Source: Mesonia sp. HuA40 (GTDB lineage: Bacteria > Bacteroidota > Bacteroidia > Flavobacteriales > Flavobacteriaceae). From it: DNA of 64,000 bases. Numbering within the stretch: position 1 is the first letter of the stretch; each line of letters opens with the position of its first letter. The notes beneath the pieces are model-generated. The model had not been told where the DNA came from, ran no database searches, and saw only the letters and a list, made by a program, of their open reading frames with translations. Shown in pieces: positions 22,938 to 26,358 of this stretch. Both the position numbers and the translations under genes were made by a program. The stretch is from positions 1 through 64,000 of the forward strand of contig NZ_VRLT01000029.1 of assembly GCF_008017835.1 (NCBI RefSeq), read 5' to 3'.

Positions 22938-23723
22938 TTATCGTTTTTGAAATTGAATGGGGTGCTTTAAGTTCTTGTAGTCTTCTAAATCTGCTTCAAG
23001 AGAACCAACTGCCAATTTTGCTTTTATTTTTATAGGCGCTTTATTTTCATCATCACTTACCCAAAAAGTTAAGCTTTCTTCTTCTTCAAAGACTCGACCA
23101 GCCTGAACGTAAGGTCTAAATTTAAGCGCTTGAACGTATCCGAATTTTGTTTTTACCCGGTCTCTACCTAGAAATACAGTCTTAAAAAGATAATTTTCAT
23201 TATCAAAAAATAAATTTAATTTGAAATCATCTCCTTTTTGTAATGTTGATCTGTCTATTTTTTCTCTTAGGTAATAAAACACTGAGAGCATATCTTGAAC
23301 ATTGGGTTTAATATCAAAACTTTCTTTTTTATTATACTTCTTATCGTGCACAAGCACGGTTTTTTGTTCATGATCAAAAAATAGCTCCTTATTTTTGGTA
23401 TGACCACCTTCATTGATTTTACGAATAAACCGCACTGGTTTTTTGCTTTCTTTATCTATAAAAGTCTGATAATCATCATCAACCTCAAAAAACAGGTGAA
23501 GCAATCCGGTTGATTTCCCGCGCCCTCTTACATGGTAAACCTCTCTACCTTCATACATTTGATCTTTTACACTTAGTGTGGCATAGCTCGCATTGAACCA
23601 ACCATAGTGAATCCTAAATTTAAAATATTCATCACTTTCAAAGGCGCTAAATTCCTGGGCTTGAGTATTGAGAGAGCTTGTCAATATACCCAAAAAGATA
23701 ATTAATTTAAGTTGATTAATCAT
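22938..23723 (-). CDS. DUF3108 periplasmic protein
   Basis: This 261-residue protein has a signal peptide (ending in NTQAQ) and the DUF3108 pattern: YGWFNASYATLSV, a central strand-rich region with VYHVRGRGKSTG and a C-terminal LTFWVSDDENKAPIKIKAKLAVGSLEADL. The family is periplasmic and of unknown function, often found near envelope genes. Here it is the first gene of an operon with the M23 endopeptidase, which suggests a role in cell-wall or outer-membrane maintenance. Confidence 0.88.
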   Translation of the reverse strand: MINQLKLIIFLGILTSSLNTQAQEFSAFESDEYFKFRIHYGWFNASYATLSVKDQMYEGREVYHVRGRGKSTGLLHLFFEVDDDYQTFIDKESKKPVRFIRKINEGGHTKNKELFFDHEQKTVLVHDKKYNKKESFDIKPNVQDMLSVFYYLREKIDRSTLQKGDDFKLNLFFDNENYLFKTVFLGRDRVKTKFGYVQALKFRPYVQAGRVFEEEESLTFWVSDDENKAPIKIKAKLAVGSLEADLEDYKNLKHPIQFQKR

Positions 23724-23759
23724 GTAACAAATTTTTAATTAAGTTTACAAGTACCGTTC

Positions 23760-23789
23760 CAAATTTAGGAAAACAAAAAACCCCACCAA
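23760..23789 (-). promoter_or_regulatory. Promoter of the DUF3108-M23 operon
   Basis: TTG (23789-23787) and TAAATTTG (23767-23760) on the minus strand are exactly 19 bases apart. The upstream half overlaps the stem of the small-RNA terminator, so the new promoter begins inside the end of the previous transcript. The leader to the ATG at 23723 would be about 30 bases. Confidence 0.7.
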
Positions 23790-23806
23790 ATACATGATGG
23801 GGTTTT
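23771..23806 (-). terminator. Terminator of the small RNA unit
   Basis: Arms 23777-23788 and 23795-23806 form a 12-bp stem on the minus strand with one G-U wobble, which would be an A-C mismatch on the plus strand. A T-rich run follows on the minus strand (A-rich 23771-23780). The asymmetry supports minus-strand transcription. Confidence 0.85.
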
Positions 23807-23888
23807 CCGCTTATTAACCAACTAAAACTTAAATTTATGAAAAAAATTCTTCAAAAATTACCTTCTAAGGAACCACCCTCAAAAGGCT
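23771..23888 (-). ncRNA. Candidate small RNA, about 115 nt
   Basis: A strong promoter (23892-23921) and a strong terminator (23771-23806) on the minus strand enclose about 115 bases without a convincing ORF. The start near 23888-23886 is estimated from the -7 box. The operon downstream has its own promoter, so this looks like an independent small RNA rather than only a leader. The alternative is an attenuated leader of the DUF3108 gene. I cannot assign a known RNA family. Confidence 0.6.
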
Positions 23889-23891
23889 CGG

Positions 23892-23921
23892 CAAAAGTAC
23901 GACTATTTTACATTACTGCAA
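23892..23921 (-). promoter_or_regulatory. Promoter of the candidate small RNA
   Basis: TTG (23921-23919), a 19-base spacer and TACTTTTG (23899-23892) on the minus strand match the Bacteroidota consensus exactly. Confidence 0.75.
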
Positions 23922-23999
23922 GCCTTTAAATTCACTTTAACCTTATTTTAATATAGTTAACAATTTATTAACAATACAATTAAAGTTAAGAGCTATAAT

Positions 24000-25169
24000 T
24001 TAGCTTTTATCTAATGTACCCCTTAAAGCTTGTTCACGCTCAATAGACTCAAATAAGGCTTTAAAGTTTCCTGCGCCAAAGCCTTTTGCACCCATTCGCT
24101 GTATTATTTCAAAAAACAAGGTAGGTCTGTCTTGCACTGGTTTGGTGAAAATTTGTAAAAGATAGCCTTCTTCGTCTGCATCAACCATAATACCTAGACT
24201 TTTTAGACGCTCTAAATCTTCGCGCAACTCGTGGCTAAATTCCTCTAATCTTCCTGGTACTGCTCTATAATATTCATCTGGCGGAACAGATAAAAACTCT
24301 ACTCCTCGCGCACGCAAATCGGAAACTGTTTTTATTATATCATCTGTACTTACTGCAATATGTTGTACACCCGCACCTTCATAAAAGTCTAAATACTCCT
24401 CGATTTGTGATTTTTTTATGCCTTCTGCGGGTTCATTGATAGGGAATTTTATACGCCCGTTGCCATTACTCATTACTTTACTCATTAAGGCAGAATATTC
24501 GGTATGTATCTGTTTGTCATCAAAAGACAAGAAATTTACAAATCCCATTACGTCTTCATACCACTTTACCCAAGTATTCATTTCATTCCAGCCCACATTA
24601 CCTACCATATGGTCAATAAACTTAAGTCCAACAGGTTCTGGTTTAAAGTCTGATTCCCAAATTTTATAACCGGGCAAGAAAGTACCCTTAAAATTTTTAC
24701 GTTCTACAAACATATGTACGGTTTCACCATAGGTATAAATACCAGCCTTTACCACTTCACCGTTTTCATCTTTTTCTACTGTTGGTTCGAGAAAAGACTT
24801 TGCGCCCCTTTTTGTGGTTTCTTCATACGCTGCACGTGCATCTTCTACCCATAGAGCAATCACTTTTACCCCGTCACCGTGTTTAACAATATGGTCGTTT
24901 ACTTTGCTTTTTGAATTTAAGGGTGAAGTTAAAACTAGTCTAATTTTATCTTGAACCAACACATAAGAAACGGTGTCTTTGCTACCTGTTTCTAAACCTT
25001 TGTACGCTAAAGATTGGAAACCAAAAGCCGATTTATAAAAATGGGCCGCTTGTTTGGCATTTCCTACATACAATTCAACATAATCTGTTCCTAAAAGCGG
25101 CAAAAAATCCTGCGCGCCATCAAAAATCTTTTCTAATCCGTAATTTACAGATTCTATCTTTTTACTCAT
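24000..25169 (-). CDS. hppD: 4-Hydroxyphenylpyruvate dioxygenase
   Basis: A 389-residue non-haem iron dioxygenase that converts 4-hydroxyphenylpyruvate to homogentisate in tyrosine degradation. Two VOC modules are visible (about 22-165 and 182-370). The iron ligands of the C-terminal module appear as His in FIDHMVGNVGW, His in VQHIAVSTDD and Glu in LFFEIIQRMG. The gene follows hmgA by 31 bases, giving an operon for two consecutive steps. Confidence 0.96.
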   Translation of the reverse strand: MSKKIESVNYGLEKIFDGAQDFLPLLGTDYVELYVGNAKQAAHFYKSAFGFQSLAYKGLETGSKDTVSYVLVQDKIRLVLTSPLNSKSKVNDHIVKHGDGVKVIALWVEDARAAYEETTKRGAKSFLEPTVEKDENGEVVKAGIYTYGETVHMFVERKNFKGTFLPGYKIWESDFKPEPVGLKFIDHMVGNVGWNEMNTWVKWYEDVMGFVNFLSFDDKQIHTEYSALMSKVMSNGNGRIKFPINEPAEGIKKSQIEEYLDFYEGAGVQHIAVSTDDIIKTVSDLRARGVEFLSVPPDEYYRAVPGRLEEFSHELREDLERLKSLGIMVDADEEGYLLQIFTKPVQDRPTLFFEIIQRMGAKGFGAGNFKALFESIEREQALRGTLDKS

Positions 25170-25200
25170 TACAATTTAATTTTGTCTGTTGTTTTATTAT

Positions 25201-26358
25201 TTAAGCCAACCAAGATTTAAAATAATCTTCATCGGCAATTTTCATAGCTTCCTCTGTTACTTGTAGCGGCTTAAAAGTATCTACCATTACCGCTAATTCT
25301 TCGGTTTTAACCTGACCTATACTTCGCTCTACCGCTCCGGGGTGCGGCCCGTGTGGGATTCCTGCAGGATGAAGTGAAATATGCCCCGCTTCAATATCGT
25401 TTCTACTCATAAAATCACCGTCTACATAGTACAGCACCTCATCGCTATCTATATTAGAATGGCTGTAAGGCGCGGGGATAGCCTCTGGATGATAATCATA
25501 TAATCTAGGGCAGAAAGAGCACACCACAAAAGCATCTGTTTCAAAGGTTTGATGAACTGGTGGCGGCTGATGTATACGACCTGTAATAGGTTCAAAATCG
25601 TGAATTGAAAATGCATAAGGATAATTATAACCGTCATAACCTACCACATCAAACGGATGGGTGGCATAGGTCATATCAAAAATTTCTCCTTGCTTTTTTA
25701 CCTTTATAAGAAAGTCTCCCTCTTCATCGTAGGTTTCTAATTCATAAGGCTGCCTAATGTCTCGTTCACAAAATGGGCTATGCTCTAATAATTGCCCAAA
25801 ATGATTGCGGTAACGCTTAGGCGTGTACATAGGCCGGCTAGACTCTACAATAAACAAACGGTTTACCTCATCATCAAAATCTATTTTATAAATAGTTCCT
25901 CGTGGTATAAGTAAATAATCTCCATATTTAAAATCAAGGTTACCCAATTGGGTTCTTAACTTACCCGAGCCTTGATGTATAAAAATCATTTCATCCTCAT
26001 CGGCATTTTTATAAAAATACTCTTTGGTACTTTGTTGAGGCGCCGCTAAAACAATACTACAGTCTGAGTTGGTTAAAACGGTTTTCCTACTCTTTAAAAA
26101 ATCTGGCTCTGGTCGCGTTTGAAATCCGCGAAAGCGATAAGATTTAATATTGTTTTTAATGGCCACTTTTGGCTTAACGCTGTAAGGGTCTTTAACCGCC
26201 TTAACTTGAGTGGGTCTGTGCTCGTGGTACATATTTGAAGACATACCATCAAAACCTATAGTACCAAACAACTGCTCGTAATACAATTTACCATTGGGTT
26301 TTTTGAAAATAGTATGTCGCTTGGGCGGAATTTTTCCTAATTTATGATAGAAAGGCAT
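25201..26358 (-). CDS. hmgA: Homogentisate 1,2-dioxygenase
   Basis: A 385-residue cupin-type iron dioxygenase that opens the homogentisate ring to maleylacetoacetate. The Fe-binding set is visible near the C-terminus: HSNIDSDEVLYY (His and Glu six residues apart) and GIPHGPHPGAVE (His). The ring-binding region HPFDVVGYDGYNYPYAF is also typical. It is shorter than the human enzyme but normal for the bacterial branch. First gene of the hmgA-hppD operon. Confidence 0.95.
   Translation of the reverse strand: MPFYHKLGKIPPKRHTIFKKPNGKLYYEQLFGTIGFDGMSSNMYHEHRPTQVKAVKDPYSVKPKVAIKNNIKSYRFRGFQTRPEPDFLKSRKTVLTNSDCSIVLAAPQQSTKEYFYKNADEDEMIFIHQGSGKLRTQLGNLDFKYGDYLLIPRGTIYKIDFDDEVNRLFIVESSRPMYTPKRYRNHFGQLLEHSPFCERDIRQPYELETYDEEGDFLIKVKKQGEIFDMTYATHPFDVVGYDGYNYPYAFSIHDFEPITGRIHQPPPVHQTFETDAFVVCSFCPRLYDYHPEAIPAPYSHSNIDSDEVLYYVDGDFMSRNDIEAGHISLHPAGIPHGPHPGAVERSIGQVKTEELAVMVDTFKPLQVTEEAMKIADEDYFKSWLA

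Follow-up and report, generated by a model that had tools for sequence, protein, structure and literature searches.

A small RNA gene between hppD and DUF3108 in Mesonia, conserved in Flavobacteriaceae and predicted to pair with translation starts

Mesonia sp. HuA40 almost certainly carries a small RNA (sRNA) gene on the minus strand at positions 23887-23771 of the window, which is the whole stretch of 64,000 nucleotides of contig NZ_VRLT01000029.1 that was analysed. Comparison with homologues strongly supports an independently transcribed RNA gene ending at a Rho-independent terminator, with expression predicted from the sequence. The RNA probably acts in trans, and is predicted to pair with the starts of mRNAs and thereby to block the initiation of translation. 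Few trans-acting sRNAs have been characterised in Bacteroidota, whose mRNAs are mostly devoid of a Shine-Dalgarno sequence. The RNA described here is a core RNA in a large part of the Flavobacteriaceae; its genomic position and its upstream regulatory site are fixed, and its long seed is invariant. Experiments in a tractable species, Flavobacterium johnsoniae for instance, could test it directly, and it would merit an entry in Rfam. The features of the locus, all in the direction of transcription, are as follows.

24000..25169, minus strand: hppD, the upstream gene
23936..23941, minus strand: GTTAAA element, about 50 bp before the predicted 5' end of the RNA and probably bound by an activator
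23919..23921, minus strand: TTG, a -33-like element
23892..23899, minus strand: TACTTTTG, the -7 element (TAnnTTTG) of Bacteroidota sigma-A
23771..23887, minus strand: small RNA gene of about 117 nt
23860..23887, minus strand: 5' stem-loop with a loop containing GUGGU
23810..23846, minus strand: invariant, mostly unpaired segment UUUUUUUCAUAAAUUUAAGUUUUAGUUGGUUAAUAAG, the presumed seed
23771..23806, minus strand: Rho-independent terminator stem-loop and U-run
22938..23723, minus strand: gene of a DUF3108 protein, downstream; a separate gene with its own promoter near 23755 and a possible target

Read from 5' to 3', the locus consists of the promoter TACTTTTG, the 5' hairpin, a 37-nt unpaired segment and the terminator. 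The predicted 5' end is G23887, 5 nt past the TAnnTTTG box and at the hairpin base where the homologues also begin, and the predicted 3' end lies within the T-run near 23771. A sequence-only reading of this DNA had proposed a promoter of the form TTG-N19-TACTTTTG at 23921-23892, fitting the Bacteroidota sigma consensus (TAnnTTTG; PMC9723704, PMC6847099). The sequence is there with its spacing of 19, and the -7 box is kept: of 124 homologous loci, 106 have TAnnTTTG in the expected 50-nt window, whereas two control windows gave 6 and 4. The TTG part of the proposal is not conserved among the homologues, in line with the report that the -33 signal of F. johnsoniae is weak (PMC6847099). A generic promoter and terminator scan, which missed the real terminator and listed the 5' hairpin (23887-23860), was uninformative because its sigma-70 consensus is not the one used in Bacteroidota.

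Further upstream lies the GTTAAA element (23941-23936), which was absent from the sequence-only reading. In 110 of 112 sRNA promoters (homologues L124-L242) it precedes the -7 box by 41-43 bp; well under 1% would be expected, and the background is 0.63 per kb. Because an activator would be expected to act from a fixed position like this, GTTAAA is the probable site of a putative activating factor. Maribacter-type loci carry a second GTTAAA 10 bp further down, forming the direct repeat GTTAAAGTNCGTTAAAA with a 10-bp period. As a search pattern for a regulon, the combination GTTAAA-TAnnTTTG was too noisy, giving 264 hits against 208 in the control, 16 of them being the sRNA itself. Separately, GTTAAA promoters with the same spacing (L549, L546) recur across Mesonia upstream of genes that by appearance are ruvA-like and class A beta-lactamase-type-like, and these genes may possibly be co-regulated with the sRNA.

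The predicted RNA is strongly folded, with a minimum free energy of -45.2 kcal/mol (z = -7.5) that none of 200 shuffled sequences equalled. In an alignment of 24 homologues both hairpins covary: double changes occur in 15 of 19 pairs, with compensatory changes in all 8 consensus pairs of the 5' stem and in 7 of the 11 pairs of the terminator, whose stem is followed by the U-run. The covariation score of 0.517 compares with 0.224 for shuffled alignments, was matched by 0 of 500 shuffles, and is lost when the partner columns are slid by 1-3 positions. The stem and T-run at 23806-23771, noticed earlier from the sequence alone, are present as AAAACCCCATCA/TGGTGGGGTTTT. The accompanying argument that a wobble in this stem fits only minus-strand RNA is correct, the single pair being U(23797).G(23786), which reads as A.C on the other strand. 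Over the whole alignment, the minus-strand reading contains about 38 G.U cells against about 3 C.A cells, and therefore the minus strand is the RNA.

The opposite orientation would make the plus strand functional, as a small gene or leader that starts at ATGAAAAAAATT, and the minus-strand signals incidental. The plus strand does resemble a flavobacterial gene start (TTAACCAACTAAAACTTAAATTTATGAAAAAA) and holds an ORF of 30 codons. However, neither length nor sequence of this ORF is conserved, the median over 145 homologues being 13 codons, and both the excess of G.U over C.A and the placement of TAnnTTTG (106 loci against 4) belong to the minus strand, which leaves this explanation exceedingly improbable. 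The earlier statement that about 115 bases here lack a believable ORF thus holds, and no conserved ORF exists at the sRNA among these homologues.

The position of the gene raises the question of its independence. Its usual place in the family is between hppD and DUF3108, and it recurs upstream of DUF3108 in relatives; in the window, the upstream gene matches the HPPD N-terminal and glyoxalase-fold families and is the usual upstream neighbour, and the downstream gene matches PF11306 (E 2e-55). Because DUF3108 is the next gene downstream of the sRNA in most genomes, the sRNA could be a cis-acting 5' leader of that gene, either an attenuator or a riboswitch-like element. Against this, in Mesonia genome G155 the sRNA comes after hppD, the gene on its other side is a convergent ribonucleotide reductase gene, and DUF3108 is located elsewhere, and the Kordia copies lie kilobases away from DUF3108, so that these loci split the two genes. 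Moreover, DUF3108 has a promoter of its own after the sRNA terminator, a TTTGGAAYA box followed by TTGTAA at about 23750-23760 on the minus strand, and the TTTGGAAYA box is retained in L067-L070, from genomes without the sRNA. The most conserved part of the RNA is also an unpaired segment. A leader function is very improbable, since DUF3108 is elsewhere in G155 and its own promoter box is kept where the RNA is absent. As a separate observation, positions 24000-26358 of the minus strand hold a homogentisate dioxygenase-like gene together with hppD, an apparent tyrosine-degradation pair upstream of the sRNA.

When 149 genomes of the family were searched, the independent sRNA gene turned up well beyond the genus. 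With a covariance model, about 73 of 249 sampled Flavobacteriaceae genomes match at E<1e-5, and in a sample of the order, matches at this threshold occur only inside the family. Among the matches listed are Mesonia, Flavobacterium, Maribacter, Arenibacter, Zobellia, Cellulophaga, Allomuricauda, Robiginitalea, Kordia, Galbibacter, Myroides, Paenimyroides and others. The sequence-only reading had suggested possible conservation in flavobacteria, to be checked between DUF3108 and hppD in relatives, and had staked itself on conservation beyond the terminator hairpin; conservation is strong, reaches beyond that hairpin, and in matching genomes the sRNA sits mostly at that very place. Each of 16 Mesonia genomes carries exactly one copy. 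Some other genera have two or three copies per genome, in tandem or dispersed (L134, L215 of the Kordia type, L204; genomes G208, G254 and G023), which resembles other multi-copy sRNA families.

The most distinctive part of the RNA is the segment between its two hairpins, unpaired in the consensus structure. Over 38 alignment columns it is 99% identical in 15 Mesonia, where the two hairpin regions reach 82-85% and the linker 64%, and it is 93% identical in the 24 homologues; the overall range for the stem regions is 77-85%. The complement of this segment is a typical flavobacterial translation start, AACCAACTAAAACTTAAATTTATGAAAAAAA. When a 64-nt stretch of the RNA was compared with 16 Mesonia genomes, 46 of the 54 best non-self matches lay antisense at ATG start codons, and for several genes these matches recur in orthologues of different species. 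The reversed stretch gave no matches below E=1e-3, against about 22 for the real one with the sRNA excluded. Predicted duplexes with the starts of 300-370 sampled genes were more stable than all 100 shuffles in Mesonia, and likewise in Flavobacterium; in Maribacter they outdid 97 of the 100.

This enrichment at start codons is partly to be expected, because any antisense of AUG and A-rich codons would show it. It originates in the CAU half of the segment, which beats shuffles only at start regions and not inside genes or further upstream. For the GUUGGUUA half alone, genome-wide enrichment at starts was not found, and its role as a genome-wide binder of start regions was rejected for want of a signal. 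The complementary 12-mer ACCAACTAAAAC occurs 47 times in the genus against 32 for the backward control, 16 of these being the sRNA itself, and is otherwise no commoner; the pattern TAACCAAC...ATGA occurs 311 times against 250, again with the sRNA accounting for 16. A further proposal, that the segment addresses a broad class of SusC/OMP leaders through AACCAAC, was rejected, as this motif is unenriched upstream of sampled genes. The leader of the Mesonia HU gene, TAACCAACAATTAGTTTAAAACAAAAATTATGA (L346 1500-1533), is strikingly conserved in at least seven species and contains the complement of GUUGGUUA.

We infer action in trans from the invariant start-codon-antisense segment together with the matches at gene starts. 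Of the earlier proposal of an independent trans-acting sRNA, the independent gene is thus borne out by promoter, covarying hairpins, conservation and separability, and the trans-acting part is a prediction that we consider probable. In the proposed mechanism, a transcription factor at GTTAAA would switch on the sRNA gene, and the segment, antisense to AACCAACTAAAACTTAAATTTATGAAAAAAA, would pair around the start codons of several mRNAs, UUAGUUGGUUAA being the sRNA stretch presumed to pair with the target. The CAU part would confer a general affinity for AUGAAAAAA-type starts, and the UUAGUUGGUUAAU part would confer specificity. Bacteroidota mostly initiate translation without Shine-Dalgarno pairing, through A-rich unstructured starts (PMC6847099), and for this reason covering the start region should block initiation; the pairing would occupy the A-rich upstream region and the AUG used by these Shine-Dalgarno-poor bacteria, and lower translation.

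Candidate targets in Mesonia are a universal stress protein (Usp), a SixA phosphatase, a thioesterase, CsbD, GldL, lipoproteins and the neighbouring DUF3108, all except DUF3108 being named from their sequences and not by family search. No single one of them is better than a tentative candidate. SixA and Usp were rejected as conserved targets, their sites, checked in 29 genomes each, being kept only in some Mesonia. The starts of DUF3108 pair better than shuffles, with a mean of -5.1 kcal/mol for the Mesonia type, -3.0 for the Flavobacterium type and -1.6 for the Maribacter type, but part of this effect is shared by any MKK start. Across species, the best matches lie mostly at gene starts, some of them in orthologues, with the 12-mer unenriched and the SixA and Usp sites not widely kept. 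A more far-reaching form of the same mechanism would be a family-wide mimic of initiation, in which one core sRNA with a consensus anti-start-region damps many AUGAAAAAA-type mRNAs, mostly of exported proteins, under a dedicated GTTAAA activator; this form is unlikely.

The same pattern, in which GUUGGUUA is the most constant part and yet the pairing with mRNAs is not conserved gene by gene, could also arise if the RNA bound a protein through the GUGGU loop and the GUUGGUUA segment, and titrated or regulated that protein. The GUGGU loop is invariant across the 24 homologues of the core alignment, as a protein site might be, but some copies in Flavobacterium and Paenimyroides have another loop in its place. 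The conserved stretch is, moreover, long, contiguous, unpaired and antisense to a start codon, not a set of short repeated sites, and protein binding as the main function appears distinctly unlikely. At loci L125, L141, L166 and L202, the 5' loop GUGGUU has given way to loops with GUCAUAA or similar, again an anti-start-codon sequence.

Among known systems, the mode of action of the trans-acting sRNA is, by analogy, best read as like that of GibS from Bacteroides. In Bacteroides thetaiotaomicron, a long, unstructured and conserved seed of GibS pairs with start regions and represses them (PMC7366714). Both RNAs are intergenic and low in GC, with their own promoter and terminator, and both carry a conserved seed that is long and single-stranded, for which pairing around the start codon is predicted, with an adjacent gene among the possible targets (PMC7366714). 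They differ in that they share no sequence homology and belong to different orders, that the seed lies between two hairpins in the Mesonia sRNA and at the 5' end in GibS, and that the Mesonia targets are candidates only. Membership of the GibS family RF04182 was rejected, at 22.3 bits against a gathering score of 115. More generally, Rfam 15 at gathering score gave no match in the window and none on the sRNA itself in 8 loci of other genera, and 19 weak matches were dismissed as chance.

The one relevant sRNA that a literature search brought up is Rfp18, studied experimentally in F. psychrophilum; it is reported to be conserved in the genus, and two metalloproteases depend on it for their normal expression (PMC9723704). 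The Mesonia sRNA may be the counterpart of Rfp18 and would then act mainly on metalloprotease mRNAs, for some of them as an activator. By description, both are conserved and structured flavobacterial sRNAs; Rfp18 has a strong structure, is widely conserved across Flavobacterium and is also expressed in F. columnare (PMC9723704), and the Mesonia family is common in Flavobacterium, where it sits between hppD and DUF3108. However, Rfp18 is said there to pair through its third stem-loop, with effects on metalloproteases, and not through an unpaired segment (PMC9723704), and F. psychrophilum is not among the sRNA matches listed. This identity is possible, if somewhat unlikely; as identity and mechanism are separate questions, it is no rival to the trans-acting mechanism in probability. 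The sRNA is best regarded as a new family within a known kind of RNA, one that may include Rfp18. RNA-seq of F. columnare has also yielded unnamed sRNA candidates without Rfam matches (PMC5395568).

Two further comparisons place the start-pairing sRNA more broadly. Like Flavo-1 (RF01705), it is a structured RNA motif frequent in Flavobacteriaceae; unlike it, it is not matched by RF01705 at any threshold tried, that model matching elsewhere in L202. OmrA/B, RybB and MicA are enterobacterial sRNAs that block start sites. With them the Mesonia sRNA shares a conserved unpaired seed, a terminator and several predicted targets among envelope and stress genes. It shares no homology with them, has no Shine-Dalgarno sequence to block, and its seed is long and AU-rich, with an anti-start-codon.
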